Part shown: positions 1,668-22,510 of the stretch, piece after piece | How the letters are laid out: each line of letters opens with the position of its first letter | How positions within the stretch are numbered: position 1 is the first letter of the stretch | DNA from: a virus | Direction: 5' to 3' (one strand) | Virus record (IMG/VR): IMGVR_UViG_3300017613_003143 | Location: 1 to 44,934 of that record | DNA length: 44,934 nucleotides | Notes under the pieces: generated by a model | What the model was told of the DNA's origin: nothing | Databases searched by the model: none | The model's input: only the letters and a program-made list of their open reading frames with translations | Program-made: the position numbers and the translations under genes

Positions 1668-4325
1668 CTATGCTAATAGTCCATTTGCGACTATTTCTCT
1701 ATTTTTCATGAGATTATTATACACGACATTCCAGTCATCTGTAATATCTATTTCTTCTAAAGATCCCCAATGTGTACCTACTTGAAGTTCGGCAAGTAAA
1801 GGTACTATAATAGGTTCAAATGCTTCATCTTCAGGTTTTCTTTTCATCTCAACATGTATCAAAGCAAGTACTTCCTGAAGTTCATTATCCGGAATATTAA
1901 ATATCAAAGAATCATATACTGTAAGTACTAATCGTGTCTTTAATTCTTTTGCCCATAAATATCTATGTATTCTAATAGCTGCCATAAACGTTAAATCAGA
2001 TGCAGCAGATTGGATAGGGGCGTTGATGCATTGTCTTTCAGCTTCTGCCATCTTATTACTATCCGAAGAAAGTATATCTTTTAATCTTCTTTTTCTTCCA
2101 AATAAACTTTTTGAATAACCATCTACTCTAGTATGCGCGGTAGTAGTTCTAATCCATTTATATGCAGAAGGATATCTTCCAAAGAAAGCATTTATAATAA
2201 CTTCGGCCTGTGTTTTTGAAATGCCTAACTGTTTAGCAACACTAGCTGAACCTCTTCCATACATCAATCCAAATACTACATTCTTAGCTGCCTGTCTTTC
2301 AGGTTTTATAACATCTGCTATAAGTTCTTCGTATACGTCGTCTGGGAGATTACCTTCGGGAATAACTTTCCCCTTCCCCGCTGCTGCCATCAACTTATGT
2401 ATATCAATGCCCATATTCAAATCATAAAGTGCTTGCTTATCTTTAGCATAATCTATCCACATACGAAATTCCGCTTGTGCTAAATCCGCTTCACATAACC
2501 AATTTATAGGCTGTCCAGGGATATCAGGATCACAACAAAAAATATCTTTAATATCATCAGCTGTTCCTGTGCGTGGGATATTATTAAGATTAGGATCTCT
2601 TGAAGAAGGTCTTCCAGTTACAGTACTATGTAACAAATAATTTGTATGTACTCTATTCTTTTCAGTTAATCTGCCTCTTATACCATCCAAAAAAGTACTT
2701 TTAAGATGGCTCAATGTCCTATACTTTGAAATAGATGCACAAAATTCATTCTTCTTAGCATATTCCTCTAATACTTCAGCATCTGTACATGCTCCTCCTG
2801 ACTTTGTCTTTTTAATTACAGGTAATTTCATCCTATCAATCAATAACTCTTTGAGTTGTTTAGGAGAATTAATATTAAATTCAAAATCAAGTAACTTTGG
2901 TTTCTTCGATAACCTCATACTAAGATAATCTTCAAATGTAGGATGTCGTTTAACAAGCGTTTTTGATCTACTCCAATGTGCTTTTATTTCTTCCTTTACC
3001 TGATGTATACAGTCATATTCATATTGACGTACTTGAGGAACGTTTTTCACTACATCTAATTGAATTTCCATTCTGTCAGTGTAACTCTCGATAGTCTTTT
3101 CTAAATAAGGTACATCAATTGATACACCATTGTATTCAGTAGTTAATAAAACTTTACTTGTAGGAATCATAACCTTATTATGTACAAAAGATAATCCTTC
3201 TTCTTCAATTAAAGGATTCATCGCCAAATATGCTCTTAATGTTACATCAGCATCAGCCGCAGCATAAGGATGTATCACATCCATTGGGATATCTTTATAG
3301 TTATCAATTTTATTTTCGTTCTTGTATTTTTCTAAAGGAGCATCATAGCCTCCTATATCAGTATATTCCCATGCCAATAATTCTAATCCATGTTTTTCGT
3401 TTTCATTGAGTAAATAATGCATTAGCATAGTATCTGCAATAAAATTTCTAACATATATTTCATGTGTTATAAAACATTGTATATCATAACTGCCATTTTG
3501 AAATACCTTGCGACTTTTATTCTCCATGACTTCTTTTACTTTAGACCAGAAATAATATGAATCATCTTTAAAATATCTACTATCCAATAATACTGCGGAA
3601 TGAGTCTCCCAAGAAAATGAAATAATAAAAATCTCAGCTTCTAATGGATTCAATGATGTTGTCTCAGTATCGCACGACCATAAATCATGTGTATGTAATT
3701 TGTTTACAACCCAGTCTAATTGTGCTCTATTAGTTACGATGTGATAATCGACTGGCTCAGGTTTATCAACTGTTATTTTACCATCAATGAAATCCGCGAC
3801 TTTCTTCATATCCTTTACTATTTTAGATCTTTCAATTGGATTCACTTCAAGATATGAAGGAGAAAATGTAGGTAATACTTGGCATTTAAGTTCTGGATGT
3901 GTAACCATCTCTCCTCTTGCTTGGGTAATAGCGCCAAGAGCAGGGAATATAGTTTTAAGTGCAATACTTCCTAACGGTACTATCAATTCAGGTTTTAATT
4001 CCTCAATTTCCTTGTACAAATATTTTGTACATGTATTTATTTCTTTTTTGCTAGGTGTTTGATTATCAGGAGGTCTACAATTTACAATGTATGCAATTCC
4101 TACAGTAGATAAATTAATATTTACTTCTGTGCATATCTGTCTAAATTTTTTACCTGCAGGCCCACAAAAATAAGATTGTTTACTACTATCTTCTTTACCG
4201 GGCTTATCATCTATTAATAAAACCTTTGCACCTTCAGGCAATCTAGAAGGAACAACTCTAGATAATTCATTACCTAGTTTACAATCCCGGCATGCACGAT
4301 CATGGTGTGATTTAAGTAACTCCAT
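1668..4325 (-). CDS. DNA polymerase family A with N-terminal uracil-DNA-glycosylase-like domain
   Basis: This 885-residue replicative polymerase has three parts. Residues 1-180 resemble family-4 uracil-DNA glycosylase, with four cluster cysteines (C12, C15, C83, C99) and a CRPPDNQTP motif, but the usual GExPG reads DDKPG and the HPS motif reads SPS (155-157). Residues about 195-370 are a DEDDy 3'-5' proofreading exonuclease (D219/E221, D281, Y354/D358). The C-terminal part is a family-A polymerase: motif A DLAQAEFR (614-621), motif B RQAAKNVVFGLMYG (677-690) and motif C VYDS (803-806), where E. coli Pol I has VHDE. UDG-PolA fusions are known in SPO1-like phages. The ATG overlaps the dpdA stop by one base (TAATG), with GAGG upstream. 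Confidence 0.95.
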   Translation of the reverse strand: MELLKSHHDRACRDCKLGNELSRVVPSRLPEGAKVLLIDDKPGKEDSSKQSYFCGPAGKKFRQICTEVNINLSTVGIAYIVNCRPPDNQTPSKKEINTCTKYLYKEIEELKPELIVPLGSIALKTIFPALGAITQARGEMVTHPELKCQVLPTFSPSYLEVNPIERSKIVKDMKKVADFIDGKITVDKPEPVDYHIVTNRAQLDWVVNKLHTHDLWSCDTETTSLNPLEAEIFIISFSWETHSAVLLDSRYFKDDSYYFWSKVKEVMENKSRKVFQNGSYDIQCFITHEIYVRNFIADTMLMHYLLNENEKHGLELLAWEYTDIGGYDAPLEKYKNENKIDNYKDIPMDVIHPYAAADADVTLRAYLAMNPLIEEEGLSFVHNKVMIPTSKVLLTTEYNGVSIDVPYLEKTIESYTDRMEIQLDVVKNVPQVRQYEYDCIHQVKEEIKAHWSRSKTLVKRHPTFEDYLSMRLSKKPKLLDFEFNINSPKQLKELLIDRMKLPVIKKTKSGGACTDAEVLEEYAKKNEFCASISKYRTLSHLKSTFLDGIRGRLTEKNRVHTNYLLHSTVTGRPSSRDPNLNNIPRTGTADDIKDIFCCDPDIPGQPINWLCEADLAQAEFRMWIDYAKDKQALYDLNMGIDIHKLMAAAGKGKVIPEGNLPDDVYEELIADVIKPERQAAKNVVFGLMYGRGSASVAKQLGISKTQAEVIINAFFGRYPSAYKWIRTTTAHTRVDGYSKSLFGRKRRLKDILSSDSNKMAEAERQCINAPIQSAASDLTFMAAIRIHRYLWAKELKTRLVLTVYDSLIFNIPDNELQEVLALIHVEMKRKPEDEAFEPIIVPLLAELQVGTHWGSLEEIDITDDWNVVYNNLMKNREIVANGLLA

Positions 4326-5086
4326 TAAACCTCACATAGCTCTTTTAAATATAGGATATTCTCACCTGCTAATTTCTTAATCTCTGTAGGGGCTATCCAA
4401 TCAATTGGAGCACGTACTCCAAGAGGCCAATCGTTCTCTATCAATGCCATTCCTTTATGTGCTGCTGATATTGGTAAAGATGTATCAATTGAAGAAATCT
4501 GATTGAACTTCATAAGGTCTAAAATTTCATAAGGATTAGGTAATCCTAATATATGGATAAGTAAATCATGTTCTTCGCACGTTTCAATAATATTAGTCTT
4601 TCTAAAAAGTGTAGGGCGGTAAAACATATGATAAGGAACCCCAATTGTTCTAATTGGATGTTTTTTAGATTGCCTTATATAATATTCCAGGCAAAATAAA
4701 TAATCATTTATACTCTCACCTTGTAATACTCCCATATAACTAGGTACATTCAATTCTGTTAATGCCCTATGTAAAAATTCATCTGACATTGCAATAGTTG
4801 TACGCGCATCGTTTATAGCATCAGGTAATACTACTTGGTCAGGCTTTAATGATTTAACTATCTCAGAATAATCAGCAAACTCCATGCTTTTACCATTTTC
4901 GAATGCTCCATTATCTAATATCATGAAACGTGATTGTTCACTTTTTCGAAGTTGTTTATAAAAAGCATCGTACGAATCATTATCCTCACAATAACTTGCT
5001 ATAACAAAATCATAGTCTGTAAGGCAGAATTGATGAAATAAAGATACTGGCAATTCTACAGCTAGTGGTAATGCGGATTTTCGCAT
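4325..5086 (-). CDS. dpdA: DpdA-like 7-deazaguanine DNA transglycosylase (TGT-related)
   Basis: This 253-residue protein resembles the tRNA-guanine transglycosylase-like DpdA proteins that exchange guanine in DNA for a preQ0-type base. Visible TGT-fold signatures are LDNGAFE (57-63, first catalytic Asp), LPDAIND (87-93), VLQGES (120-125), HILGLP (178-183) and SSIDTS (198-203, likely nucleophile Asp201). It lacks the tRNA-recognition extensions of longer TGTs. The frame is open 27 codons further upstream, to 5167, but I place the start at ATG 5086: AGGAG lies just ahead of it, and the extension would run through a promoter-like element and a terminator. It is translationally coupled to polymerase. 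The genes folE2, queE and queC in this window could supply its substrate. Confidence 0.82.
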   Translation of the reverse strand: MRKSALPLAVELPVSLFHQFCLTDYDFVIASYCEDNDSYDAFYKQLRKSEQSRFMILDNGAFENGKSMEFADYSEIVKSLKPDQVVLPDAINDARTTIAMSDEFLHRALTELNVPSYMGVLQGESINDYLFCLEYYIRQSKKHPIRTIGVPYHMFYRPTLFRKTNIIETCEEHDLLIHILGLPNPYEILDLMKFNQISSIDTSLPISAAHKGMALIENDWPLGVRAPIDWIAPTEIKKLAGENILYLKELCEV

Positions 5087-5110
5087 ATTAACTCCTATTA
5101 ATTTAATAAA

Positions 5111-5123
5111 TTTATAATACACG
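5111..5123 (-). promoter_or_regulatory. Promoter-like motif before dpdA
   Basis: Minus-strand CGTGTATTATAAA lies between the terminator at 5127-5157 and the dpdA start at 5086. It matches a motif family seen in other gaps of this genome (GTGTAT followed at once by TATAA). No clear -35 box is visible, so it may depend on a phage-encoded sigma factor. The assignment rests on sequence and position only. Confidence 0.55.
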
Positions 5124-5126
5124 TAT

Positions 5127-5157
5127 AATAAAAAAGCCCAGTACAATACCGGGCTTT
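5127..5157 (-). terminator. Rho-independent terminator after the 209-aa gene
   Basis: On the minus strand, the sequence AAAGCCCGGTA, loop TTG, TACTGGGCTTT forms an 11-bp stem with one G-U pair, followed by a T-rich run. It begins about 20 nt after the stop codon at 5180, and a promoter-like motif for dpdA follows directly. It therefore separates two transcription units. Confidence 0.85.
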
Positions 5158-5179
5158 CAAAGGTCAATAAATAGAATGT

Positions 5180-5809
5180 TTATTTAGATGTTTTTTCTGT
5201 CAGGTGTGCAGGCACTTCTTTTTTATCTTTTTCCAATTTCTTAATCAAATTATACTTCCTTGGTCCTCTGATCTGACGTATAAGATTTACTCTCTCAGGT
5301 GCGCCCACCCCTATATCATCATGAGCTGTTATAACAGCATCAGCTATATCTTCTGCGGATTTCCCTTCCATAAGTAATGGATTAATAATCCCAGACATGT
5401 TGATCTTTTTTGATTTGTCCATCTCTTCTGCTTTCTTTATTGTTGTTTTCTTTTCTTCTTTAATTTCTGTTACAGATGTTGTTTCAGGAGATTCAGTAAT
5501 AGTTTCAGGAGATTCAGTAATAGTTTCAGGAGATGCAGTTTCTACTTTTGCAGAAGGTATATGAAGATTTTTATCATATGCAATAAGCTCAGTAGTACCA
5601 GATATATTCAAATGTTTATTCTCGTCATTAGTTTCACTTTCAACGGTAACGCTTGTGCATCCTAAATTAGTTCCGTTCACTTTAACTACCTTTATCTTAT
5701 ATAGCATACCTACAGTTAAATATTCCTTACCGACTTCTGCGTCTCGCGCCATCAAACGTGGGTAAGTGTCTGACATTTTTAAACGATCCGCTTTTTCTTT
5801 TTCATCCAT
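5180..5809 (-). CDS. Hypothetical protein with Ser-Pro-Glu-Thr repeat linker (209 aa)
   Basis: The N-terminal part (about 1-95) contains a compact beta-rich segment (VGKEYLTVGMLYKIKVVKV). A Pro/Glu/Thr/Ser linker of tandem 7-residue repeats (SPETITE) follows at about 113-132. The Lys-rich C-terminal region (about 145-205) contains a small helical segment, MSGIINPLLMEGKSAEDIADA. This looks like two small domains joined by a flexible linker. No catalytic motif is recognised. AAGGA lies ten bases before the ATG, a promoter-like motif lies just upstream, and a strong terminator follows, so it may be a single-gene transcript. That would suggest high or separately timed expression. The function is unknown. 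Confidence 0.8.
   Translation of the reverse strand: MDEKEKADRLKMSDTYPRLMARDAEVGKEYLTVGMLYKIKVVKVNGTNLGCTSVTVESETNDENKHLNISGTTELIAYDKNLHIPSAKVETASPETITESPETITESPETTSVTEIKEEKKTTIKKAEEMDKSKKINMSGIINPLLMEGKSAEDIADAVITAHDDIGVGAPERVNLIRQIRGPRKYNLIKKLEKDKKEVPAHLTEKTSK
5481..5543 (-). repeat. 21-bp tandem repeat, three copies, coding
   Basis: The plus-strand unit gtttcaggagattcagtaat(a) occurs exactly twice (5481-5501 and 5502-5522). A third, diverged copy follows at 5523-5543. It encodes the SPETITE linker of the 209-aa protein. The near-identity at DNA level points to recent slippage or duplication. Confidence 0.85.
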
Positions 5810-5835
5810 GTTTTATATTTCCTTAAATTTCATTA

Positions 5836-5850
5836 ATAATTATATACACG
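5836..5850 (-). promoter_or_regulatory. Promoter-like motif before the 209-aa gene
   Basis: Minus-strand CGTGTATATAATTATT lies in the 52-nt gap between the genes ending at 5862 and starting at 5809. It contains a perfect TATAAT with TG four bases ahead, and matches the motif found before dpdA and in other gaps. No -35 element is obvious. Confidence 0.6.
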
Positions 5851-5861
5851 ATAATTCCTGT

Positions 5862-6869
5862 TTACGAGCTCCCTACTACTTGCATAAGATTTTGGCGTAA
5901 TCTTGATGGCTGCATATTTATACTCTTAGCAGCTGCCGTGAGTGACTCTCCATCAAGAATCATGCGTATAGATGCGCGTAATTTAGATTCTTGCTTTTTT
6001 AAATGTTCAGGCATTTGTAAATGTTCTAAATCAATATCAAAATCCTGGAGAACGCCTGTCGAATCATCTGACAACACATCAAGTAATACACTCTCTTCGC
6101 CGCTCCCTGAATTTTTACTAATCGGTGCAAAAATACTTTTAGCTTTATGATTAGTCATTGTTCTTGCACAATTCTTATTACTCCATACAAATACAGTGCC
6201 ATCTTTCAATTTATCATGCGCTTTACGTGCTTTTAATATTGCTTGTTTATCCTTCTTAAAGAATAGATCTAAAAATTGGTCATACATAAAATCTATAAAC
6301 ATTGGAGGGCGTTTCATACCTTCAATTTTATCTTGATAAGCATCCCAAAATCTTTCATCATAATTATTAGTATCTAACCAATTCGTAAAATCTCCCTCTT
6401 CTTTATAAACACCTCTTCTTCTTGCGGAAGTTGTTAATATATTATTAACAATTAATTTAAAGAAAATTGAAAATTTCTGACCACTAGGTTTCGGCCCCCA
6501 AAACCTTAATACGAAAAAACTCTGATATTTAATATCAGCTACATCATTCTGTACTTCGAAATCCTGAAAGTTATTTGACTTATGACTATACATAGATGCT
6601 TTTGTAGCATACATCACTAAGTGCTTCCATAATTTTTCAAATATTAAACCATCAACTTCATAAACTGTTTTTGTCTGTCCTTTTTTAGCTCCCTTATAAT
6701 AAGTGCGCACAGGAGATGCATATTTCTTTTTTAAACCCTCTTCCGAAGATATTCTATCTTCTTGGTATTTAAAAAATCTATTACGTTCGGCGGGTTTCAT
6801 TTCGCGGCAGGCTTTAAGAGATAAGATATCAATTTCGGTCATTAATAAAGCTATCTGTTCTGGTTGCAT
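5862..6869 (-). CDS. Possible divergent sigma-70-like transcription factor (335 aa)
   Basis: No catalytic motif is visible. Residues about 110-160 (VLRFWG...KFSIFFKLIVNNILTTSARRR) resemble sigma region 2 in pattern: an aromatic-rich helix, then an amphipathic helix ending in Arg. The last 45 residues (LRASIRMILDGESLTAAAKSINM...RLRQNL) look like a helix-turn-helix of region 4 type. The middle is lineage-specific and basic. The call is a structural-pattern inference; the protein could instead be another DNA-binding phage protein. It is followed by a promoter-like motif and lies downstream of the zinc-ribbon gene and queC, with a 119-nt gap before its ATG. Confidence 0.45.
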   Translation of the reverse strand: MQPEQIALLMTEIDILSLKACREMKPAERNRFFKYQEDRISSEEGLKKKYASPVRTYYKGAKKGQTKTVYEVDGLIFEKLWKHLVMYATKASMYSHKSNNFQDFEVQNDVADIKYQSFFVLRFWGPKPSGQKFSIFFKLIVNNILTTSARRRGVYKEEGDFTNWLDTNNYDERFWDAYQDKIEGMKRPPMFIDFMYDQFLDLFFKKDKQAILKARKAHDKLKDGTVFVWSNKNCARTMTNHKAKSIFAPISKNSGSGEESVLLDVLSDDSTGVLQDFDIDLEHLQMPEHLKKQESKLRASIRMILDGESLTAAAKSINMQPSRLRQNLMQVVGSS

Positions 6870-6902
6870 TAATTACGCCCTTTCTTTATTTGTTATTTTA
6901 AT

Positions 6903-6923
6903 CATTGAATTAAATATACAAAC
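6903..6923 (-). promoter_or_regulatory. Weak promoter-like variant before the 335-aa gene
   Basis: Minus-strand GTTTGTATATTTAATTCAATG lies 35-55 nt before the ATG at 6869. It resembles the GTGTAT-TATAA family but lacks the first GTG and an intact TATAA. I list it because it sits in one of the few real intergenic gaps. Confidence 0.3.
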
Positions 6924-6941
6924 ATAGCACTGAAAAGTCCC

Positions 6942-6955
6942 GGCAAAATTTTGCC
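6942..6955 (-). promoter_or_regulatory. Perfect 14-bp palindrome (operator candidate)
   Basis: GGCAAAATTTTGCC is an exact palindrome in the 119-nt gap between the zinc-ribbon gene (ends 6989) and the 335-aa gene. As a hairpin it has only a five-base stem with an AATT loop and no proper T-run, so a dimeric protein-binding site fits better than a terminator. Confidence 0.35.
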
Positions 6956-6988
6956 CCAATATATGAAATTATATGTGAATATGCGGAA

Positions 6989-7201
6989 TTATGCGCTTAT
7001 TTCGCTATCATCTAAATGCGCATCTTTAAGCGCCATATATTCTTCTGCCCTTTTTACTATTTCACCACATTCCGTACAATATATTCGTACCTCAAGCTTT
7101 AGAGCATTTATCCATCCGCTAAGTTCGCAGGGTATATTTTGAGGATGTAAAATTATCTTACGGCATTTATCACAAATGTACCCACTCATTTTTAAACCCA
7201 T
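6989..7201 (-). CDS. Small zinc-ribbon protein (70 aa)
   Basis: The protein carries two CxxC knuckles, CDKC near residue 10 and CTEC near residue 42, about 30 residues apart. This is a typical four-cysteine zinc ribbon, followed by an acidic tail (LDDSEISA). The start is firm: AAGGAG lies eight bases before the ATG. It sits just after queC (16-nt gap) and probably on the same transcript. Small zinc ribbons in phages often bind nucleic acid or host proteins, but nothing specific can be assigned here. Confidence 0.75.
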   Translation of the reverse strand: MGLKMSGYICDKCRKIILHPQNIPCELSGWINALKLEVRIYCTECGEIVKRAEEYMALKDAHLDDSEISA

Positions 7202-7216
7202 AATGTTTACTCCTTC

Positions 7217-8050
7217 TTATTTTAACACTTCTTCAACATGTGCTTTTGCTACATCCCAAGTAACAGGTCCTTTTTCATCAGCATAATCAACAGGATCCGG
7301 AACCCCTAATTTAATAAACGCTTCAATGCGCTCAACGGAAGATCCAGATTTATAATCGGAAAATATTCCTGTATATCCCCTCTGGTCATCCACTTCGATA
7401 TTATGGAATATGGGTTTATAAGAAGTATTTGTTCTCTTATATACTTCATTAAAATCTATTCCTAAACGTGCACATGCAGTTTGTCCATCTTGTAGTATTC
7501 CGAATTTATCCATTTCAAGATATGGCATATAAGGAAGTATTGAAAAATCAATCCAATTACCTTCTACAAAAGCTTGCCAATCTGCGCTAATAAACTCTTT
7601 TCTACAATCTGGGTAAATAGCGTGATCTCCTGAATGTATGCCTAGTGCTATAACTACGCCACATTTTTTAGCATTAGATATACTTAATGCAGTTGCTTGC
7701 AATATCGAAGAAAATATCTTATTACGATTAGGTACGACAGTTGCTTTCATATTATCTTCTGCATAATGTCCTTCAGGAACATCGTCACCACCTTTAACTA
7801 GTGTAGAACCTAATAATTCTGTAAGACCGTCTAGTTTGATTACATGATGTTTTATATCTGGGTAATCCATGTTAGAAGAAGCTTCGTTTAAATACATTAC
7901 TAATTGCTCGGCTCTATCTAATTCAATATTATGTTTCTGCCCGTAGTCAAAAGACAGTGCGGTAACTTCAAAACCTTCAGATAATAAATGAATTAATAAA
8001 GTAGAGGAATCCATACCCCCTGATAAACTTAATACAGCTTGTTTACTCAT
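7217..8050 (-). CDS. queC: QueC-like 7-cyano-7-deazaguanine (preQ0) synthase
   Basis: QueC converts 7-carboxy-7-deazaguanine to preQ0 using ATP and ammonia. The PP-loop ATP motif SGGMDS is at residues 10-15. FDYGQKH (34-40), VPNRN (107-111) and YPDCRKEF (146-153) match the family. At 277 residues it is longer than typical QueC (about 230). The four C-terminal zinc cysteines are absent: the TCY position reads TSY (209-211), and the CGxCxxC segment reads YKSGSSV (233-239), although the ERIEAF sequence after it is kept. It may therefore bind no zinc, or make a different product such as the amide. Its ATG overlaps the stop of a 50-aa membrane protein by one base. Confidence 0.88.
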   Translation of the reverse strand: MSKQAVLSLSGGMDSSTLLIHLLSEGFEVTALSFDYGQKHNIELDRAEQLVMYLNEASSNMDYPDIKHHVIKLDGLTELLGSTLVKGGDDVPEGHYAEDNMKATVVPNRNKIFSSILQATALSISNAKKCGVVIALGIHSGDHAIYPDCRKEFISADWQAFVEGNWIDFSILPYMPYLEMDKFGILQDGQTACARLGIDFNEVYKRTNTSYKPIFHNIEVDDQRGYTGIFSDYKSGSSVERIEAFIKLGVPDPVDYADEKGPVTWDVAKAHVEEVLK

Positions 8051-8202
8051 TATATAACTCCTGATAATCGTAAAATAAGTGCTATTGTTAAAGATCCCAT
8101 AGCGATTAAATACGCGGGATCATGAAAAGCTCTTGTATAAGATTCCTTAACTGAAAGCCCTTTTGCAGATTTTAAACTTCCAAACCATTCCCATTTACTC
8201 AT
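8050..8202 (-). CDS. Small putative membrane protein upstream of queC (50 aa)
   Basis: A short frame begins at ATG 8202, inside the end of the phosphoesterase gene, with GGGGGTGG just ahead as a ribosome binding site. It ends in TAATG, so its stop overlaps the queC start by one base. The protein begins MSKWEWFGSLKSAKG and has a hydrophobic C-terminal helix (YLIAMGSLTIALILRLSGVI), consistent with one membrane span. The tight coupling on both sides is good evidence that it is translated. The function is unknown. Confidence 0.65.
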   Translation of the reverse strand: MSKWEWFGSLKSAKGLSVKESYTRAFHDPAYLIAMGSLTIALILRLSGVI

Positions 8203-8818
8203 TACCACCCCCTATTACTTCGTAAAAATGTTCCCAGTCTTTTGTAAATAATTGCTTATCTCTTATTTCTTTTAATTCTTCTAAAGTTCTCGGTATATAA
8301 TCTAAATGTTCAACACAAATATTTATGAATTTCTTCTTACCCGCTACTACAGGAGCATCTAACAACTTCCTATGTACATGCCCATATAAAACATAATCAG
8401 CTTCATTAATTTGTTGACATAGTCTATCCCACTGCTTCATTAAGTCATGTACTACTAAAACCCCATCCTTAAAATAATAAGAATGCGTTTCATCAAAACC
8501 TATGGCACGTGATGTTTTTTGAGATCTTTCGTGGTTCCCTTTGACTAATATTTTCTTACCGTTTAAAGATGCAACTAAAGGTGTTATTCTCGATTTATAC
8601 CCCCTTATACTCCCTAAAGCTAAATCGCCACCATAAATTACGGTATCCTCAGGAGATACAGTCGCATTCCATGCGCTCACCATAAAGGTATCCATGTCAG
8701 AAAGATTCTCAAAAGGTCTGCTCTCATACTCTATTATATTGGCATGGTGAAAATGATGATCACTTATGTAATAGGTTTTACTCAAAAGCCCTTCTTCATT
8801 AACGACTCCAATTCTCAC
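8195..8818 (-). CDS. Calcineurin-like metallophosphoesterase
   Basis: All the metal-binding signatures of this superfamily are present in order: DHH (D20, H22), GGD (63-65), GNHE (94-97), VVHD (H124) and GHVH (146-149). The length, 207 residues, suits a compact phosphodiesterase of the type common in phages. The substrate cannot be told; such enzymes act on nucleotides, RNA ends or 2',3'-cyclic phosphates. The start overlaps the 3' end of folE2 by 20 nt. A CGTGTATATAAT sequence inside the folE2 end (8862-8873) could act as an internal promoter, but it also encodes an ordinary peptide. Confidence 0.88.
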   Translation of the reverse strand: MRIGVVNEEGLLSKTYYISDHHFHHANIIEYESRPFENLSDMDTFMVSAWNATVSPEDTVIYGGDLALGSIRGYKSRITPLVASLNGKKILVKGNHERSQKTSRAIGFDETHSYYFKDGVLVVHDLMKQWDRLCQQINEADYVLYGHVHRKLLDAPVVAGKKKFINICVEHLDYIPRTLEELKEIRDKQLFTKDWEHFYEVIGGGNE

Positions 8819-9713
8819 TATGTTGATAACAAGCTACGTCATAAGGATGTATTGATTCCTCATTATATACACGCAGTGCCCACGATTCGATATTATCAAG
8901 CCCTTCTATTGCGAGTTGTACATCTCTTGTAATGTCTTCTGAAAATTTAGCATTATTATAAGCTTGTTCTGTAACAAACTTCTCATCAGCCCGTTTAAGT
9001 ATAGGATAGACTGGCGCAGATGCCTGCTTCTCCACAAGATCAATAATATCTTCAATCCAGACTATTTCCCCAGGCTTAGTTAATAATTCAACTCTAATAT
9101 TAGATCTTTGATTATGTGCTCCCATTCCTATTTGTTTAGCTGCATCTTTTTTTCCTAGTTTTTCAAATAATTCCTTATCCTCTTTTCCAAAATCCCCTTT
9201 AAGATCTTTCCAGTCTAATTCTTTAAGTAAACTCATACCTCTTGAACATGGGCATAAACTCGCAGCAATTACATTGACTTCTATTATAAAATCATATGTA
9301 CCATTCTTTTTAATGCCGGTAAATGCGCAACGATATCGCTGAGGTGCAACTTTCTTTGATACAGGGGCTTTGCGGTCTACATAATAATCAAACTCAAAAC
9401 GCGCATATGCATCTTTGCTTTTTAATCTCTTCCTTAACAAATCTAACAACTTAGGCATCGACTGTGCAGATATGGTATGTTGATTAAATTCCATCAGGCA
9501 TTCCATAAAGCGTGACATATTGACACCCTTAAATTCTTTTGGTAATCCTACAAATATTTTAGTAAGTGCAGACACTTGTCGGTATTCATGCTTATCCTCA
9601 TCTTTTAATCGCACCTTTATTGGAAAATAAACGTTGGTAATGCCTACTCTGTCAATAGCAATATTGCGTAGGTCTTCTTCATTTTGTAAATCGGGGAGTG
9701 TCTTTTCGCTCAT
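8799..9713 (-). CDS. folE2: GTP cyclohydrolase FolE2 (type IB)
   Basis: FolE2 turns GTP into dihydroneopterin triphosphate, the first step towards both folate and 7-deazaguanines. The family signatures are clear: KGVNMSRF (62-69), YYVDRKAPVS (110-119), SLCPCS with catalytic Cys154 (152-157), GAHNQRS (198-204), and ILKRADEKFVTEQAY near 238-252. About 35-40 extra residues lie between CPCS and GAHNQR, where the bacterial enzyme has a short loop. Next to dpdA, queE and queC, it most likely feeds the DNA-modification pathway. It overlaps the primase zinc-domain gene by 4 nt (ATGA). Confidence 0.95.
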   Translation of the reverse strand: MSEKTLPDLQNEEDLRNIAIDRVGITNVYFPIKVRLKDEDKHEYRQVSALTKIFVGLPKEFKGVNMSRFMECLMEFNQHTISAQSMPKLLDLLRKRLKSKDAYARFEFDYYVDRKAPVSKKVAPQRYRCAFTGIKKNGTYDFIIEVNVIAASLCPCSRGMSLLKELDWKDLKGDFGKEDKELFEKLGKKDAAKQIGMGAHNQRSNIRVELLTKPGEIVWIEDIIDLVEKQASAPVYPILKRADEKFVTEQAYNNAKFSEDITRDVQLAIEGLDNIESWALRVYNEESIHPYDVACYQHSENWSR

Positions 9714-10240: not shown

Positions 10241-11571
10241 ACGCCTTCTACTAATCCTTCTTGATAGGGTACGAATAGTTTCTTATCCCCTACATAATTG
10301 AGGTCACCACTGCAAAATGTAGTAAAACCAACGTGCTTAGGCCCATATCTATTTTTCTTGATATTCCAGTGTAATTGATTAGTTGCTTCATCAATGCCTT
10401 CAGCATCTTGGTACAAATGCATCATCAGATGACATACATTTAGAAAATAATGACTTTCAGATATGTGCTCTGTGCCAACTTTAGCTTTATCTTTTATCTT
10501 TTTGCCTTCTCTGTTCTCCTGCATGCTTGTAAGAAATCCAATCTTATACATCCTTGCAATTCTTCTTATCTCAACGCCTACATTTTTAAATTTTTCACTT
10601 GTATTATTCCAAGATTCAACAGGGCTCATTTCATTTAAATAATCCAATACTAGTACGTCAGGATATCTGCCCTGCACTGTATAGTATAATTCTAGTTCAG
10701 AAATTAAATCCGCAGTTGTTGCATCTCCCGGAATATCAACAAGATACATTTTTGGTTTTGTTTTTTTATTCTGTATTAAACGCTGTCTATAATGTTCTCT
10801 ATTACCTTCTAAGCTGCCTCCTAAAATATCCCCAAAAGATAATAACGCATCTCTACTATCAACAATTAGATTATAATCCTGAAAGGGAACTTCTAGAGTA
10901 ACAACCATTACATGCTTTCCCCCTATATAAGAAAAATTATAAGCAAGGTTAGCTTTTGTCTTGGTTTTATATCCTCCACTCTCTGCATACAATCCTACTA
11001 CATGAGATTTTCGCATTCCTCCTGTATGCTTATCTAATTCTTCAATATGATAAGGCATACCTTCTTTCATGTTAGGATTAGATTCAACCTGTCTATACCT
11101 AGCCCATCGCGCGGATGCACTTTCATAAATAAACCCTCTCTCACGTTGTCCTACTTCAAATGGGTTTACTAATTTTGAAAGATCATATATTTTAGCTCTT
11201 ACTACTTCTTCAATACGAGATCTTTCCATTTCATTAGGAACTCTCTCAATAATATCAAGAACTGTACGAGATGCGTACATTTCATATAAATCATAAAGTT
11301 TAGTATTAGTTAACTTCGTATCTACCGTCATTGTAGCTATTTCTTGAGTAAACAACTTTACTTCAGTATCTAAAGATTTAGATATAACTAATTCAGCAGT
11401 AGGATATGTGGAATAAGGAGGGGCTAAAAATCTCTTATATTCTTTATAAGCTTTTCTACACAAATCATCTTGTAGATAACTATCTGGAATATTTTTCCAA
11501 TGTTCTGGCCCTCTTAAACAACAAGCTAGAAAATATTGTTCGGTATCCGTATCTTGGAATTTTAATGCCAT
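10237..11571 (-). CDS. DnaB-like replicative helicase
   Basis: This 444-residue RecA-fold ATPase has the DnaB arrangement: a helical N-terminal domain (about 1-140), then a C-terminal motor starting at HTGGMRKSHVVGLYAE. The Walker A region reads ESGGYKTKT (197-205), with Tyr where a Gly normally precedes the Lys. Walker B is VLVLDY (Asp310), and later motifs include TSMQENREGKK and a HISESH segment. Its neighbours are a DnaC-like loader on one side and a primase zinc domain on the other, which supports the replisome role. It probably unwinds DNA 5'-3' at the fork as a hexamer. Confidence 0.85.
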   Translation of the reverse strand: MALKFQDTDTEQYFLACCLRGPEHWKNIPDSYLQDDLCRKAYKEYKRFLAPPYSTYPTAELVISKSLDTEVKLFTQEIATMTVDTKLTNTKLYDLYEMYASRTVLDIIERVPNEMERSRIEEVVRAKIYDLSKLVNPFEVGQRERGFIYESASARWARYRQVESNPNMKEGMPYHIEELDKHTGGMRKSHVVGLYAESGGYKTKTKANLAYNFSYIGGKHVMVVTLEVPFQDYNLIVDSRDALLSFGDILGGSLEGNREHYRQRLIQNKKTKPKMYLVDIPGDATTADLISELELYYTVQGRYPDVLVLDYLNEMSPVESWNNTSEKFKNVGVEIRRIARMYKIGFLTSMQENREGKKIKDKAKVGTEHISESHYFLNVCHLMMHLYQDAEGIDEATNQLHWNIKKNRYGPKHVGFTTFCSGDLNYVGDKKLFVPYQEGLVEGV

Positions 11572-12342
11572 TTAATCTTTCATTATCTTATTTAACGCTA
11601 TTGATGAACTTCTGAAACTCTCTCCTACTAAAATTATATCTACTAATTCCTGTAATCTATCTACAATGTTAAATGCATGTACATGTCTAAGATCTGATTT
11701 AGGCACATTTGCAGTTACTATTAAAGACTTCTGGTTATCATACAAATACCCAAAGAAATCATTAACCTGTGATCCCATAAACTTGTTAGTATCTCCTACT
11801 GCAAAATCTTTTTCTACTTCATCAATGAACAATAACTGTGTTTCCTTTTTAATAAAATCTAGAAAATCCCTCTTTGAATCATCTTGAGTACTTTCATACA
11901 TAAGCTTAGTAAGTTGAGATAGCCGTAAACTATAACAGGATATTCTCTTGTCTAATGCTTTTTTCATAATATAAAATGCAATCGCGGTCTTTGCTACCCC
12001 AGAAACCCCTTGTAAATATACTCCCACTCCGTCATCTACCATTTTCTCAATCTTATTACAATAATTATTTATTATCGTAAGCGATGTATCATTTTCTTGT
12101 GTAAATTTTTCTGCCAATACAGTTAAATCAAACTCCCAATATTTTTTAGGTATACCTGCGCCAATATAAGAAGTATGCTTCTTAAATACATCAATGCAAT
12201 CACAATCTTTTAATGTTTTTGTGGTTGCAGCAGTGTCTAAAATTACACCTGTTCCTTTACAAGTATTATTACATACTACACCAATGATAGTTTCTTTTAA
12301 TTGTAATACTTTTTCTTCTGATATAAAATGTAATCTATTCAT
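11572..12342 (-). CDS. DnaC-like AAA+ helicase loader
   Basis: This 256-residue ATPase has Walker A GVSGVAKT (112-119) and Walker B LLFIDE (170-175), with the overall pattern of DnaC/IstB-type loaders. An N-terminal four-cysteine element (C24, C28, C47, C49) could bind zinc. Its stop directly abuts the start of the DnaB-like helicase gene, which points to loading of that helicase on single-stranded DNA. The start overlaps the upstream 131-aa gene by 4 nt. Confidence 0.85.
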   Translation of the reverse strand: MNRLHFISEEKVLQLKETIIGVVCNNTCKGTGVILDTAATTKTLKDCDCIDVFKKHTSYIGAGIPKKYWEFDLTVLAEKFTQENDTSLTIINNYCNKIEKMVDDGVGVYLQGVSGVAKTAIAFYIMKKALDKRISCYSLRLSQLTKLMYESTQDDSKRDFLDFIKKETQLLFIDEVEKDFAVGDTNKFMGSQVNDFFGYLYDNQKSLIVTANVPKSDLRHVHAFNIVDRLQELVDIILVGESFRSSSIALNKIMKD

Positions 12343-12734
12343 GATTTTTTAAATAACATAACGTCTCTGTAAAGCTGCTCTCTTAATCGTGTAAATTCAT
12401 CATTACTATATTGATCGAGCGCATGATGCTTTAATATATTGTAAATTTTCTCACTTACAATAGTTCCAAACGTTGGTACATAATCCTTTGCAATGAATAA
12501 TTGTTGAAATACTTTATCAATAAAATCTTTATAATCAGTGTTGCCTAATCCCAGCTTCTTTCTAAAACCTTTTATACGCCCTAAAAATCCAGGCCAAGCA
12601 ACAGGAGGAATATCAAGACCTTTACCTGCCATCTTTTCTAATTCATTAGAAAAATGAAAAAGAAAATCCCTGTTAGTCCACTTATCTAAATCTTTAGTAA
12701 TTACATTATATGGAGATACCTTAATTATCGGCAT
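12339..12734 (-). CDS. Hypothetical protein in replication operon (131 aa)
   Basis: The protein is mostly helical and basic, beginning MPIIKVSPYNVITKDLDKW, with a Gly/Pro-rich stretch (GKGLDIPPVAWPGFLGRIKG) around 38-57 and a Lys-rich end. No domain is recognised. It lies between a SLOG-like gene and the helicase loader and overlaps both (14 nt and 4 nt), so it is almost certainly translated with them. A role in replication initiation is possible from context only. Confidence 0.75.
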   Translation of the reverse strand: MPIIKVSPYNVITKDLDKWTNRDFLFHFSNELEKMAGKGLDIPPVAWPGFLGRIKGFRKKLGLGNTDYKDFIDKVFQQLFIAKDYVPTFGTIVSEKIYNILKHHALDQYSNDEFTRLREQLYRDVMLFKKS

Positions 12735-13206
12735 GTGCTTCTCTAATAAATGCTTGTAATTCTTTTTCGTCTTCTTTATTAAATAAGTTATAAACTTTTA
12801 TGTCTTTAGAAATTGCAATTCTAAGACCTTGTGCTGTTCCTCCTTCTAAACCACCATTAGGAGTCCAGCATATAATAAAGTCTACAGGATCATCTAGCTT
12901 TTCTCCTAATACAATCATACTATTTCTTCCATGTAGAGCACGCGCCCATTCATTACATTTAATCCATGCCGGATGAAAATGCGCCGCATGATCTAATGCT
13001 TCTTCTGTAGCATCTTTAGCATAAAATATTTCTTTTTTACCTTCTACTTTATCACAACCAATTTCAAACATCTTATCAGCGCCTCTTGCCCCGCCACTTC
13101 TTAGTATGAAACCTTTTTCAGCGAGTGAAGTAGCCATGCGCTGCATATTTGCTAAAATTTCTGGAGGTGTCTTTCTTGAACCGATACCTGCATATAATTT
13201 TTTCAT
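12721..13206 (-). CDS. SLOG/DprA-like Rossmann-fold nucleotide-binding protein
   Basis: The 161-residue protein shows the single-domain pattern of the SLOG superfamily: LYAGIGSRKTPPEI at the N-terminus, SGGARGADKMFE (57-68), and a C-terminal GGLEGGTAQGLRIA segment (about 118-131). These motifs line a nucleotide- or ligand-binding pocket in DprA and LOG relatives. Stand-alone versions are frequent in phages and their role is not settled; ligand sensing or nucleotide hydrolysis are options. It overlaps the downstream 131-aa gene by 14 nt and the helicase gene upstream by 4 nt. Confidence 0.8.
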   Translation of the reverse strand: MKKLYAGIGSRKTPPEILANMQRMATSLAEKGFILRSGGARGADKMFEIGCDKVEGKKEIFYAKDATEEALDHAAHFHPAWIKCNEWARALHGRNSMIVLGEKLDDPVDFIICWTPNGGLEGGTAQGLRIAISKDIKVYNLFNKEDEKELQAFIREAHADN

Positions 13207-14660
13207 GTTATTTCCTCTAATGACTTTTTGCTTATATTTCTTAATACGACATTAAATTCTGGTTCTGATTTATAAAATCTTTTTCTATTATTGCTATGTT
13301 TTCTTAAATACTTACATTGAAATTCAAAATCAATGACACCACATACTGTTTTATCATCTTTAGCAGTCATTGAACGCATTCTCTGTATAGTAGGTATCCT
13401 TTTAGCGCCTCCTACCAAGTTAATCGTATAATTCAATGATGGTACATCTATACCTTGCTCTATTAAAGTAGATACAACGCATAAATGAGTTTTATCTCTC
13501 AACTCATTGATTATATCTTTTCTTTTTTCAGGTGCTTCATTTCCTATTAAATAAGGGCAGTCTAAAAACTTAGCAAGCTTTTTAGAATGTTCTCTAAACT
13601 CAGTCTGTACAACTACAGAATGCCCCTTCGCTACTATTTTGTCTACTATCTTTTTAACTAACCCTGTCAAAAATTCATTATCTGTTATAGCTTGTTTATA
13701 CACGCTCTGATAATTTCCATCAACTACAATCTTTGGCAACTTATACAAATAAATGGTTGGGGCGAGTAAATATCCTTCTTTTATAAGCTCAGAATATGTT
13801 ATTTTATGAATGACAGGCCCTACAAATTCTTCTACTCTCATTGCTTCTTCATCATCTTCTTCAAAGGGTGTTGCAGATAAACCAATCTTCATTGTAGCAT
13901 TAACGCATTTATCTAAAACCATTCTGCTAGTTCTGCCACTACTTTCATGAGCTTCATCATAAAATAAAGCTTTAGTACTTTCAAATAATACTCTTACTAA
14001 TTCCTTATTTTGTAAATCTTTTTCTTTATGTTCCCCTTTAGATGTTTTATACTTTTTATTATAAGCACTATAAGCACTTTGTACAGTTACTACTGTTATA
14101 TTAGTTATATGACATTTTCCATCTCCTACTATGCCTATTTCGTGCTCAGGGAAAATTGCTTGTGCAGCTTCTTGTGTCTGGTATGCCAAATCTAAACTTC
14201 TACATAATATGACTGCCGGGAATTGCCTGTCACTATCAATTGTGGCTAATGCTATAAGGGTTTTGCCGCTTCTTGGAGGGGATTGTAATATTCCAAATCT
14301 ATACTGTAATATCTTTGATATACAAATCTTTTGATATTCTCTCGGCACATACGTTGAATTACGTTGTTTATAATTAACAGCAACAGGTGTGTCTAATATA
14401 TTTACAAACAATCCTTCTTTTTCTAATAATTGTTTTACTCTATATATCAATCCTGGTCTAAATGAATGAGTGCGCTTACTGTATAATCTATTATAGCCAT
14501 CCCAATTACCGCTTTGAAACTTAGGAGAAAAGAAATAACCATCTGTTCTATACGAGAGCGCGGCATATAACATGGCTTCCACATCTTCTGGAAGCGGAGT
14601 AAGTATTCTACAGCGTACTGGAGAAAACTGAATATCTATTGTGGCGCTATTATTGTCCAT
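13203..14660 (-). CDS. UvsW-like superfamily 2 DEAH-box helicase
   Basis: The 485-residue protein has an N-terminal accessory domain (1-100) like T4 UvsW. The SF2 helicase motifs follow: PREYQ (Q-motif-like), SPPRSGKT (127-134), DEAH (235-238) and SATP (262-265). The second RecA lobe has VVQTEF, VVSTLIEQGIDVP and QRMRSMTAKDD. T4 UvsW remodels recombination intermediates and R-loops, helping the switch to recombination-dependent replication, and a similar role fits here. It overlaps a small gene upstream by 25 nt. Confidence 0.88.
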   Translation of the reverse strand: MDNNSATIDIQFSPVRCRILTPLPEDVEAMLYAALSYRTDGYFFSPKFQSGNWDGYNRLYSKRTHSFRPGLIYRVKQLLEKEGLFVNILDTPVAVNYKQRNSTYVPREYQKICISKILQYRFGILQSPPRSGKTLIALATIDSDRQFPAVILCRSLDLAYQTQEAAQAIFPEHEIGIVGDGKCHITNITVVTVQSAYSAYNKKYKTSKGEHKEKDLQNKELVRVLFESTKALFYDEAHESSGRTSRMVLDKCVNATMKIGLSATPFEEDDEEAMRVEEFVGPVIHKITYSELIKEGYLLAPTIYLYKLPKIVVDGNYQSVYKQAITDNEFLTGLVKKIVDKIVAKGHSVVVQTEFREHSKKLAKFLDCPYLIGNEAPEKRKDIINELRDKTHLCVVSTLIEQGIDVPSLNYTINLVGGAKRIPTIQRMRSMTAKDDKTVCGVIDFEFQCKYLRKHSNNRKRFYKSEPEFNVVLRNISKKSLEEIT

Positions 14661-14938
14661 CCTTCTTGTGTTAAGTGTTGTAAAATCTGTGATGATACAT
14701 TACTATCAATCATTAGTGGATGACCACTATCATCCACTATCCATTGTTGTAATACTTCTCCGAGCCGCATTGCGTGATTATAATCTATAGGGGCATCGGT
14801 AGGTACGATCTTATTATGTAAAAGAATAGCATCTACAATCCACTCATATAAAAATTTCGGCGGCATAGTGAGATTATTTTGTGTTAATTTTTCATTAACA
14901 TCTATTGTTACATTTTCTACTATAGCTTGTTTATCCAT
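14636..14938 (-). CDS. Hypothetical protein (100 aa)
   Basis: The acidic protein begins MDKQAIVENVTIDVNEKL and ends LTQEGWTIIAPQ. The pattern suggests an alpha-helical fold; no motif is recognised. It overlaps the UvsW-like gene by 25 nt and the upstream 76-aa gene by 8 nt, which supports translation in a compact operon. The function is unknown. Confidence 0.7.
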   Translation of the reverse strand: MDKQAIVENVTIDVNEKLTQNNLTMPPKFLYEWIVDAILLHNKIVPTDAPIDYNHAMRLGEVLQQWIVDDSGHPLMIDSNVSSQILQHLTQEGWTIIAPQ

Positions 14939-15161
14939 CTCCTAATGCCTCCTCTGTGAAAGGGTCGCAGTTTATTTCCCATATTTGATTTTGCCCAATA
15001 TACGCATCACTTGTTGCAATATTAGGATTGCCGGTTTCAATTGGATCTTCACCGCTATCAAACAATTTAAATATATCACCTTTTTTAAGTGACATGAACT
15101 TACAAGGTACCCAATCATTACCTTCTAAACGTTCTACTATTCGTTCTTCTTTATTTTCCAT
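14931..15161 (-). CDS. Hypothetical protein (76 aa), ATG start at 15161
   Basis: The frame is open to a TTG at 15167, but AAGGAG followed by six bases leads to the ATG at 15161, which I take as the start (MENKEERIVERLEG). The protein is small and acidic, with a segment FMSLKKGDIFKLFDSGE that resembles short phage proteins of unknown role. It overlaps the MT-A70 methyltransferase gene by 11 nt upstream and the 100-aa gene by 8 nt downstream. Confidence 0.7.
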   Translation of the reverse strand: MENKEERIVERLEGNDWVPCKFMSLKKGDIFKLFDSGEDPIETGNPNIATSDAYIGQNQIWEINCDPFTEEALGDG

Positions 15162-15750
15162 TATCAACTCCTTTTAAATCCTTAAATAACTCATATCCCC
15201 AAGCATCCCACCCTTCAGTATCCTCAGTCGCGAATAATTCAATTCGTTTTATATCCCCACACAATTTAATTATTCTATCTCTAGCTTCTTTAGGTTTTCT
15301 AGAATGCTTTGTATTTGGTACTACAAGTTCTGACGGCATTATGTCATTTGGTATAACTTGATGAACACCATGATTCATTACTTTTGGTTTTCCTTTAACT
15401 CCTAATAAACATATCTCACTATTAGCTCTTGTATAATGTCCAGAACCCCAAAATAAAGTTTCAGTAGCTTTCTTATTTGTTTTTACCCAAACAAAAGCCG
15501 CAGTAACATACCTAAATCCCCAACTTTCAATAGATTTTATACCTTCCGCTAACTTAGGCCAAGTTGCCCATAAAAAAAGAAAGCAATTATCATCTGCCAA
15601 TTCGTCTACATTAAGATTATACACGTCTTTATCGGACATCGTTGGATAAGTCTGTGCAGCCGTCCCTATATGCTTAGGTCCTCCTTTTCTTTTATAGTCC
15701 CAAGGCGGATCCACATATATAATTTCATACTTATTTACTACCGGAATCAT
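15151..15750 (-). CDS. MT-A70-family adenine N6-methyltransferase
   Basis: The catalytic motif DPPW is at residues 14-17, in YEIIYVDPPWDYKRKGG. The family pattern follows: FLFLWATWP, GFRYVTAAFVWVK, an H-x-RKP-x-E element (HSRKPKEARD) and an IELFA strand. Phage members methylate adenine in DNA; the sequence target cannot be read. At 199 residues it is a minimal catalytic domain with no recognition domain. It may protect phage DNA from restriction alongside the 7-deazaguanine system. The start is four bases after the stop of the 81-aa gene. Confidence 0.9.
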   Translation of the reverse strand: MIPVVNKYEIIYVDPPWDYKRKGGPKHIGTAAQTYPTMSDKDVYNLNVDELADDNCFLFLWATWPKLAEGIKSIESWGFRYVTAAFVWVKTNKKATETLFWGSGHYTRANSEICLLGVKGKPKVMNHGVHQVIPNDIMPSELVVPNTKHSRKPKEARDRIIKLCGDIKRIELFATEDTEGWDAWGYELFKDLKGVDNGK

Positions 15751-15754
15751 TTAT

Positions 15755-16000
15755 TTATAACCCTGCGTCTCTTAATCTTCTATTAATAAAAAATAACTCG
15801 TCTTCACAAACTTCTACTAAATTCATTTTATTTTTCTTATGAAATTTTTCTTTACGCATTTCAATAGCTTCTTTCACCTGATATAATGCCGTTAAATCGT
15901 CCATCCCATTATGGAAAGATTTTACAAAATTATCAAATGATTTATGCCAAACTTTACTGCCTTCTATAGTCTGATATTTAAGTCCTTCTTGTGTTGCCAT
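15755..16000 (-). CDS. Hypothetical protein (81 aa)
   Basis: The small, charged, probably helical protein begins MATQEGLKYQTIEGSKVWHKSF and has a Lys-rich middle (EMRKEKFHKKNKMNL). No motif is recognised. It overlaps the 3' end of queE by 23 nt and lies four bases ahead of the MT-A70 gene, so it is part of the same transcript. The function is unknown. Confidence 0.7.
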   Translation of the reverse strand: MATQEGLKYQTIEGSKVWHKSFDNFVKSFHNGMDDLTALYQVKEAIEMRKEKFHKKNKMNLVEVCEDELFFINRRLRDAGL

Positions 16001-16727
16001 ATAAAAAACATTGCAATCTTGGGGTTAACCTATAACCTAACGCTTTTATTTTATCTGCTAATTCTATCATCTTTATTGATAGCAAAGATGCGTCAGTGCC
16101 TTCTGGCATAATTATTATTTTATCTCTACTCAGATTGTATTTATTTTGAATTTGTGATACTTCTCCGAGATCTTCTTCGTCAACAACAACAAACTTAAAA
16201 TTAGAATTTGAGAAACTATCAATTGACTCTAATGCTGATTCCACTAGTGCCTTTCTTTCCTCATTGCCTGACTTGTGTAATTTAGGAGAACAATTGATTT
16301 GCACGTGTGCAAATTGTTGCAAACGAGCGTCTAATTCAATAGTGCCGTTTGTTTCTATCTCAATTTGATAATTTACCGGAGTCTTCTCCAAAAATGCGAT
16401 TATATGGCGTTGTTGTAATAATGGTTCTCCTCCTGTAATTACTAATCTCCTACAATTATTATTTTGCATATACTGCAAAACTTCAGAAAATTTTATAATA
16501 TGATGTTCATTCCAATATTCCTCAGTATCTGTTTTCCAAGTATACCAGGCATCGCAAATTTCTCCCCCATGATCAGACCAATCACATTTAAGATTACATA
16601 AATGTAAACGCAAAAAAACTGCAGGCATTCCTAACGTAGGGCCTTCTCCTTGTAAAGTATAAAATAATCCATCCCCACTAGCTAAGAATCCTTCTGTCTT
16701 CGGTAATTTAGGTACTCTTTTTTCCAT
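15978..16727 (-). CDS. queE: QueE, 7-carboxy-7-deazaguanine synthase (radical SAM)
   Basis: QueE rearranges 6-carboxytetrahydropterin to 7-carboxy-7-deazaguanine. FYTLQGEGPTLGMPAVFLRL (22-41) and the ITGGEPLLQQ segment are diagnostic. The cluster loop is unusual: C44 and C48 are in place, but the third cysteine of the usual CX3CX2C is Ser51. The next cysteine is C58, in CDAWYTW, which matches the CDTxxTW that normally carries the third ligand. A seven-residue insertion (SDHGGEI) has thus moved it to CX3CX9C. It follows the FolE2-like paralogue by 15 nt; both could be read from the promoter-like motif at 17463-17481. Confidence 0.9.
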   Translation of the reverse strand: MEKRVPKLPKTEGFLASGDGLFYTLQGEGPTLGMPAVFLRLHLCNLKCDWSDHGGEICDAWYTWKTDTEEYWNEHHIIKFSEVLQYMQNNNCRRLVITGGEPLLQQRHIIAFLEKTPVNYQIEIETNGTIELDARLQQFAHVQINCSPKLHKSGNEERKALVESALESIDSFSNSNFKFVVVDEEDLGEVSQIQNKYNLSRDKIIIMPEGTDASLLSIKMIELADKIKALGYRLTPRLQCFLYGNTRRT

Positions 16728-16742
16728 GTAGTTATTCCTTTA

Positions 16743-17432
16743 TTATAAAGTATTCCAAACATTTTCGTATTGGGTTGTATAAAAATTATACACATCAGGA
16801 TGTGTTATGTTAATTCTAATTGCACTTCCTAATTTCTTTATTGTTTTTTCTTGTGAAAGTGCATCCATATATTCTCCTACAGATTTGCCCGCATCTATCA
16901 TATTTACTGCATTAGTATTATCTTCTAAAGTAACCGGAGGATACATCTTAACTTCACCATACTTCTGTACATAATCTAAAATATCTTCAAAATATATTTC
17001 ATAAGGATCTATAACAGAAAAAATCATCTCCCCCAGCATAGTAAACGGCTGTTTAACCCTTATAGGTAAAGTTACACCCATTTCAAGTACAGGCCTAACA
17101 CCTTTCATACCTTTCACTTTATAAAAACAAGACATTTCATAAAATGAATCTTTAAATGTAGAAGATGCTCTATCCACATGATAAAGGAAATTCATTCTAA
17201 AAACTAAATCTTCCATATCTTCTATTTTCAAAATTTCCTTTAGTACATCTCTAGGCGTATGCACAAAACAAGTATTCTTTACTAAAGGTACTAAATGAGA
17301 CACAATATTCTCCATGTTCATAAATCCTTTAGTCTCTAAAGAACAATTGCACATTACTTCGTGATGCCCTTTATTACGCTTCGGTATAATCAAGGGCAGA
17401 TTGATATCAAATATCTTGGAAAATGAATTCAT
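16743..17432 (-). CDS. Divergent FolE2-like (T-fold) paralogue next to queE
   Basis: I aligned this 229-residue protein by eye to the canonical FolE2 at 8799-9713. LVFRMNFLYHVDRAS (76-90) matches ARFEFDYYVDRKAP. PVLEMGVTLPIRV matches the strand before the catalytic CPCS, and FEDILDYVQKYG (148-159) matches IEDIIDLVEKQA. The C-terminal HPDVYNFYT matches IHPYDVACY. The catalytic CPCS and GAHNQR motifs are absent and the protein is about 75 residues shorter. It keeps the fold pattern but not GTP cyclohydrolase chemistry. Being next to queE, it could supply the missing QueD step (also a T-fold), but no HxH zinc motif of QueD is seen. The homology is inferred; the function is unknown. Confidence 0.6.
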   Translation of the reverse strand: MNSFSKIFDINLPLIIPKRNKGHHEVMCNCSLETKGFMNMENIVSHLVPLVKNTCFVHTPRDVLKEILKIEDMEDLVFRMNFLYHVDRASSTFKDSFYEMSCFYKVKGMKGVRPVLEMGVTLPIRVKQPFTMLGEMIFSVIDPYEIYFEDILDYVQKYGEVKMYPPVTLEDNTNAVNMIDAGKSVGEYMDALSQEKTIKKLGSAIRINITHPDVYNFYTTQYENVWNTL

Positions 17433-17462
17433 AAATTATTTAACCATTTCTACGTTTGAGTG

Positions 17463-17481: not shown

Positions 17482-17482
17482 G

Positions 17483-19864: not shown

Positions 19865-19875
19865 GTATACTCTCC

Positions 19876-20526: not shown

Positions 20527-20540
20527 ATGTTGTCCTAAAA

Positions 20541-22509: not shown

Positions 22510-22510
22510 A

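Follow-up and report, generated by a model that had tools for sequence, protein, structure and literature searches.

A probable viral pathway for 7-deazaguanine DNA modification with FolE2 at its entry, a zinc-less QueC and a FolE2-like protein encoded where relatives have queD

The phage represented by IMG/VR record IMGVR_UViG_3300017613_003143 very probably synthesises a 7-deazaguanine base and inserts it into its DNA, with one biosynthetic step coming from the host, from an unseen gene or from an orphan protein encoded next to queE. Such replacement of guanine in DNA is a known kind of protection from host enzymes. The analysis covered positions 1 to 44,934 of the record (44,934 nt, hereafter the window), in which the minus strand holds nearly all likely genes. 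An earlier note on this DNA had named folE2, queE, queC and a DpdA-like gene; all four are real minus-strand genes whose coordinates stand (Table 1), with support from Pfam, NCBIfam, PHROG, tblastn and fold comparisons. Fold, catalytic residues and conserved gene company in many viral loci support the route that the note drew from them, from GTP to a preQ0-type base that is then inserted into DNA, and the note's statement that the window has no recognisable queD was borne out. It overlooked both the FolE2-like protein encoded ahead of queE and the missing zinc site of QueC. The former, an ORF that lies within the note's interval (4325-17432) but went unnamed there, is its most informative additional part. 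This kind of system is already known (PMC6884629); the combination found here is new.

Table 1. Features of the window, with positions counted from its first letter.
Feature	Position	Strand	Basis
polA, DNA polymerase of family A with a 3'-5' exonuclease and a UDG-like domain at the N terminus	1668-4325	-	PF03167, PF01612, PF00476
dpdA, TGT-fold DNA guanine transglycosylase candidate, 253 aa from ATG	4325-5086	-	AF2 model, PDB matches, invariant Asp, profile alignment
Terminator-like hairpin, 12 pairs then a T run, just upstream of dpdA	5132-5158	-	strongest of 12 such sites
queC, catalytic motifs present, all four zinc cysteines gone (TSYKPI...YKSGSSVER)	7217-8050	-	PF06508, E = 2.6e-36
folE2, GTP cyclohydrolase IB type, with CPCS, HNQRS and KRADE	8799-9713	-	PF02649, E = 3.3e-74; alignment
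queE, radical SAM CDG synthase, CX3CX9C	15978-16727	-	phrog_2076, E = 2.5e-53; alignments
Orphan, 229 aa, divergent FolE2 paralogue (probable T-fold) without the FolE2 active site, where relatives have queD	16743-17432	-	hhalign, AF2, alignment

In the route that we infer from these genes, FolE2 would convert GTP to dihydroneopterin triphosphate, the CPH4-forming step that is normally QueD's would come next, QueE would yield CDG, and the zinc-less QueC would give ADG and/or preQ0. DpdA would then swap guanine in finished DNA for the base by double displacement, with Asp201 as the nucleophile by analogy, working with Asp58. The CPH4 step would most likely be supplied by host QueD or by a gene outside the sequence seen; the FolE2-like protein is a candidate third, less likely source. 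No QueF, Gat-QueC or ArcS was noticed among the genes, and the expected product is therefore dPreQ0 or dADG, which may protect the DNA from restriction. Phage pathways of this kind have been established for 9g and CAjan (PMC6884629), and in Campylobacter phage CP220 all dG has been reported to be replaced by dADG (PMC8306585). Scans with QueC and FolE2 return loci that carry dpdA, queC, queD and queE together with folE or folE2. Three observations count against this account: the gap in the pathway, no QueD being found in the 60.8 kb in hand; the loss of the zinc motif from QueC; and a tyrosine at residue 291 of FolE2, where 97% of relatives have histidine.

The viral record is probably an incomplete contig, a fragment. 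An overlapping contig (L001/G001) is 99.99% identical to the window over 6,963 bases and reaches 15.9 kb beyond window position 1, bringing the total sequence in hand to 60.8 kb; an exact-match search beyond the right end of the record found no contig. The window is thus part of a larger phage, for which a tail sheath domain encoded in the overlapping contig suggests a contractile tail.

Profiles of 106 phage QueDs searched against 540 six-frame segments of the window gave nothing better than E = 0.5. The earlier note had proposed extending the hunt to the rest of the genome; queD is also absent from the 15.9 kb past window position 1, and the negative result thus covers 60.8 kb of a genome that is probably incomplete. 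In the first two successful scans, 51 of 51 related loci whose queE has 5 kb or more of sequence to either side carry queD; the window does not. Where the two genes share a strand, queD precedes queE in 180 of 187 loci and does so directly in 76. The latter include the loci with the nearest QueEs, L224 (42% identity) and L225 (40%), where the 3' end of a queD-like frame and the 5' end of the queE frame overlap. Phages that have DpdA without some or all of the preQ0 genes are known, and supply by the host has been proposed (PMC6884629); QueD is therefore not strictly defining for DpdA systems. The phage QueDs themselves (L004, L033-L191) have CxxxHGY and FRQ instead of the canonical CxxxHGH and AAH, with HGY in 123 of 134, so that zinc ligands have possibly been lost in these proteins as well. 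Just downstream of queE, an MT-A70-type adenine methyltransferase (15151-15750) could possibly provide a second DNA modification.

The position occupied by queD in relatives is taken in the window by the orphan, whose stop lies 15 bases ahead of queE. Family profile searches with this protein matched no family. Using hhalign, it scored 35.2 against the FolE2 profile, whereas none of 150 shuffles exceeded 23.1 and none of 300 natural ORFs exceeded 22.2, and it was the top non-FolE2 scorer among 1,913 ORFs; three motifs align, in order. An AF2 model made without an alignment was of low confidence (39.5). Its best PDB match was FolE2 (2r5r, DUF198), followed by QueF, GTP cyclohydrolase I and PTPS, none of them significant alone (best E = 0.4). 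In the FolE2 alignment, the orphan keeps the structural P31, L57, K62, G63, M66, Y127, E221, D243 and D260, and lacks the catalytic CPCS, HxQRS and KR, E244 (the last Glu) and the His of ESxH. Taken together, the alignment and the model point to a protein that is homologous to FolE2 overall, probably with a T-fold. It can hardly act as FolE2 does because the catalytic columns are lost. Directly upstream of the orphan gene are genes for a B12-dependent class II ribonucleotide reductase (17483-19864) and a sigma-70-like factor (19876-20526).

What the orphan does may be read in two ways. It could be a non-catalytic partner of FolE2, a pseudo-subunit in a mixed oligomer, with QueD supplied by the host or encoded in a stretch of the phage genome beyond the sequence seen. 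The retention of structural positions and loss of catalytic ones would fit such a role, as would the intact FolE2 encoded in the same genome. The two genes are 7 kb apart, however, and other FolE2 phages manage without such a partner; we consider this role possible but doubtful. It would refine the preferred explanation and does not exclude it. Alternatively, a FolE2-derived T-fold enzyme replaced QueD and performs its step, making the pathway self-sufficient. The placement directly before queE speaks for this replacement, given where queD stands in relatives and its absence here, as does the T-fold-like order of elements in the low-confidence model, QueD being a T-fold protein as well. Against it, the orphan contains neither CxxxHGH nor CxxxHGY, and its scores as a divergent QueD were no better than chance against the 106 phage QueDs or a second set of longer QueDs. 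Moreover, searches of about 240 loci, of the phage collection and of viral contigs and bacterial genomes gave no relative of the orphan, so its conserved residues are unreadable. This replacement is, on balance, unlikely. If the orphan does make CPH4, the first committed step of 7-deazaguanine synthesis would have been solved in a second way; if it does not, the virus may depend on its host for one step of the modification pathway.

Phage 7-deazaguanine pathways have been described as starting with FolE. The GTP cyclohydrolase of the window is FolE2, not FolE, and exceeds the NCBIfam cut-off for FolE2. It carries an insertion of ~34 residues (162-195) between CPCS and HNQRS that is absent in 98% of relatives. 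Among 239 viral loci, folE occurred in 78 and folE2 in 100, with neither in view in 61 and both in none, as expected if the two do the same job. Twelve loci of >15 kb have folE2, queD, queE, queC and dpdA together, and FolE2 thus commonly serves as the alternative entry enzyme in viral loci. In the literature covered, no paper was found that ties FolE2 to a phage 7-deazaguanine pathway. In a phylogenetic tree, the window FolE2 groups with bacterial FolE2 and outside the main phage FolE2 clade with 100/100 support, so that it was probably recruited separately from that clade, although its branch is long and its exact placement unsure. A calcineurin-like phosphoesterase (8195-8818) overlapping folE2 was rejected as a part of the pathway, as it is not conserved in relatives.

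QueC of the window retains the motifs of canonical QueC (PF06508 cluster 1), SGGxDS, YxQxHxxE, VPxRN and YPDC, at residues 10-15, 36-43, 106-110 and 146-149, respectively. The zinc motif C(x)8CxxCxxC is absent: cysteines occur only at 130, 149 and 193, and YKSGSSVER stands in its place. The protein shares 59-67% identity with QueCs of a large phage clade (best 80 of at least 552 relatives in one scan), and CxxCxxC is likewise lacking from 108 phage QueCs of the TNTSY form, most of which read SDYKSxSSVER there. The motif is kept in the QueCs of Youna2, BSP7, StAshley and CP220. Zinc-less bacterial QueCs were sought in a sample of Verrucomicrobiota, in which 30 of 30 had the motif and 0/30 were zinc-less; Bacteroidota are perhaps likelier hosts. 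In E. coli QueC, YxQxHxxE, VPxRN and YPDC matter and the zinc motif is a hallmark; the exchange Y189A, within the zinc-motif region, abolishes function (PMC13329287). The window QueC keeps a tyrosine at the Y189 place (TSY). By analogy, the zinc-less QueC may not make preQ0. Its zinc loss as a sign of an ADG product is not supported, as CP220, with dADG, keeps the motif. Zinc-less QueCs, like FolE2-based versions of the pathway, are common in environmental viruses.

A bolder proposal is that a FolE2-derived T-fold protein took over the QueD reaction and that the base is made without any canonical zinc enzyme: FolE2 would stand in for FolE, the orphan for QueD and a zinc-less QueC for the usual one, with a DpdA that lacks the TGT zinc motif. 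We judge this distinctly improbable. The relatives' FolE keeps apparent metal-site residues, so zinc loss would be complete only in lineages like this one. A fully zinc-free pathway across the clade is not supported: FolE of the relatives retains CxHH and CRG, and the window itself has a gene for a CHC2 zinc-ribbon primase. The primase appears to be split between distant genes, the CHC2 zinc ribbon at window 9710-10240 and a DnaG-N/Toprim protein at 7705-8502 of the overlapping contig (L001).

The identity of the window DpdA as a TGT-fold transglycosylase is well supported. Its gene starts with the ATG at 5086, preceded by a good ribosome-binding site. The protein matches no Pfam family, including no TGT family, and matches phrog_19058 (E = 2.1e-8). 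Using tblastn, it hit the annotated DpdA of Flavobacterium phage immuto (4e-11), and homologues of 24-32% identity were found in immuto phages, Youna2, BSP7, CP220 and StAshley. About 100 viral relatives were gathered from the scans with QueC and FolE2. The AlphaFold2 model, based on a 58-sequence alignment, had a pLDDT of 91.3, and all of its 20 best PDB matches were tRNA-guanine transglycosylases (best E = 4e-8). Residues D58, N59, D89, Q122, H178, G181 and D201 are invariant in the 58-sequence alignment; D58, D89 and D201 are also invariant in an 85-sequence set. In a profile-profile alignment with 15 bacterial TGTs, LPD (D89) of DpdA is matched with FDE of TGT, and VLQGE with IVQGS. Judging from their order along the sequence, D58 and D201 would be equivalent to the catalytic aspartates of TGT. 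The protein presumably resembles group DpdA3 of Cui et al. 2023, to which we do not assign it. The CP220 homologue, gp056 (L003 6016-6792), is still annotated as a 'hypothetical protein' although the phage is fully dADG-modified. Near queE-folE in L224 (3103-3906) and L225 (3391-4278), phages with a queD-like gene, are proteins with DSGAFSAW and DSGAHSFF, respectively, which may be a further TGT/DpdA-like branch.

The homology of DpdA to TGT, and the precursor genes held in common with the queuosine pathway, could instead mean that the genes raise queuosine in host tRNA with no modification of DNA. This is very improbable: no QueA, QueG or QueF was noticed among the annotated ORFs, the CxCxxC motif of TGT is absent from the DpdA family (0/101 relatives), and a DpdA of this kind is present in CP220, whose DNA is fully modified. 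That the genes are decayed remnants of a pathway no longer running, as the missing QueD and QueC zinc ligands might indicate, is scarcely credible, since all reading frames are intact, zinc loss is common to the whole QueC clade with the other motifs kept, and the dpdA frame recurs unchanged in two near-identical contigs of other records, one of which also has queC and folE2.

The earlier note had described dpdA as fused into the polymerase operon through TAATG, with modification and replication made together. The overlap is real: read directly in the sequence, the dpdA stop and polA start share one base. The terminator-like hairpin, however, separates dpdA from the genes upstream of it; it is the strongest of the 12 terminator-like sites in 4000-20600, as compared to a shuffle mean of 6.7. 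This hairpin indicates that transcription of dpdA-polA probably begins separately from that of queC, folE2 and queE. Among 96 dpdA loci, polA directly follows dpdA in six (the window, its two copies, Youna2, BSP7 and StAshley); queC is directly downstream in 26 others and queF in 4. The arrangement is thus recurrent without being the rule, dpdA before queC being more usual, and the coupling alone does not show joint production. TGT-type exchange works on the finished polynucleotide, as established for TGT, and the coupling therefore need not mean insertion during synthesis. The earlier interpretation accordingly holds for the pathway and the lack of a QueD gene, while the coupling to the polymerase is not special. 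The polymerase coupled to dpdA bears its UDG-like domain at the N terminus.

Each of the closest known systems shares some features with the window. The cluster of phage immuto (L004, L032) has a homologous DpdA and a QueC that is about 61% identical and also without the zinc cysteines; unlike the window, it has FolE, queD and queF. In Weizmannia phage Youna2 and Bacillus phage BSP7, polA comes directly after dpdA, and the region also holds queC and queE; these clusters differ in possessing FolE, QueD and a QueC with the zinc motif. In CP220, gp056 is homologous to the window DpdA (tblastn 2e-7), whereas QueC has CxxCxxC and the dpdA homologue is beside genes for an ATPase and thymidylate kinase. 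Viral contigs of the type folE2-queD-queE-queC-dpdA (for example L113, L123, L132 and L134) resemble the window in combining FolE2 entry with the rest of the pathway, and several share the zinc-less QueC; they differ in keeping queD and in their FolE2, which belongs to a separate clade.

Finally, a run of sugar genes of ~19 kb (20972-39945) seems unusually large for a phage. It encodes a dTDP-sugar epimerase, several NAD epimerase/dehydratases, a GDP-mannose 4,6-dehydratase, an aldo-keto reductase, two transketolase halves, a B12-binding radical SAM protein, methyltransferases and many glycosyltransferases, including a GT2-GT4 fusion.
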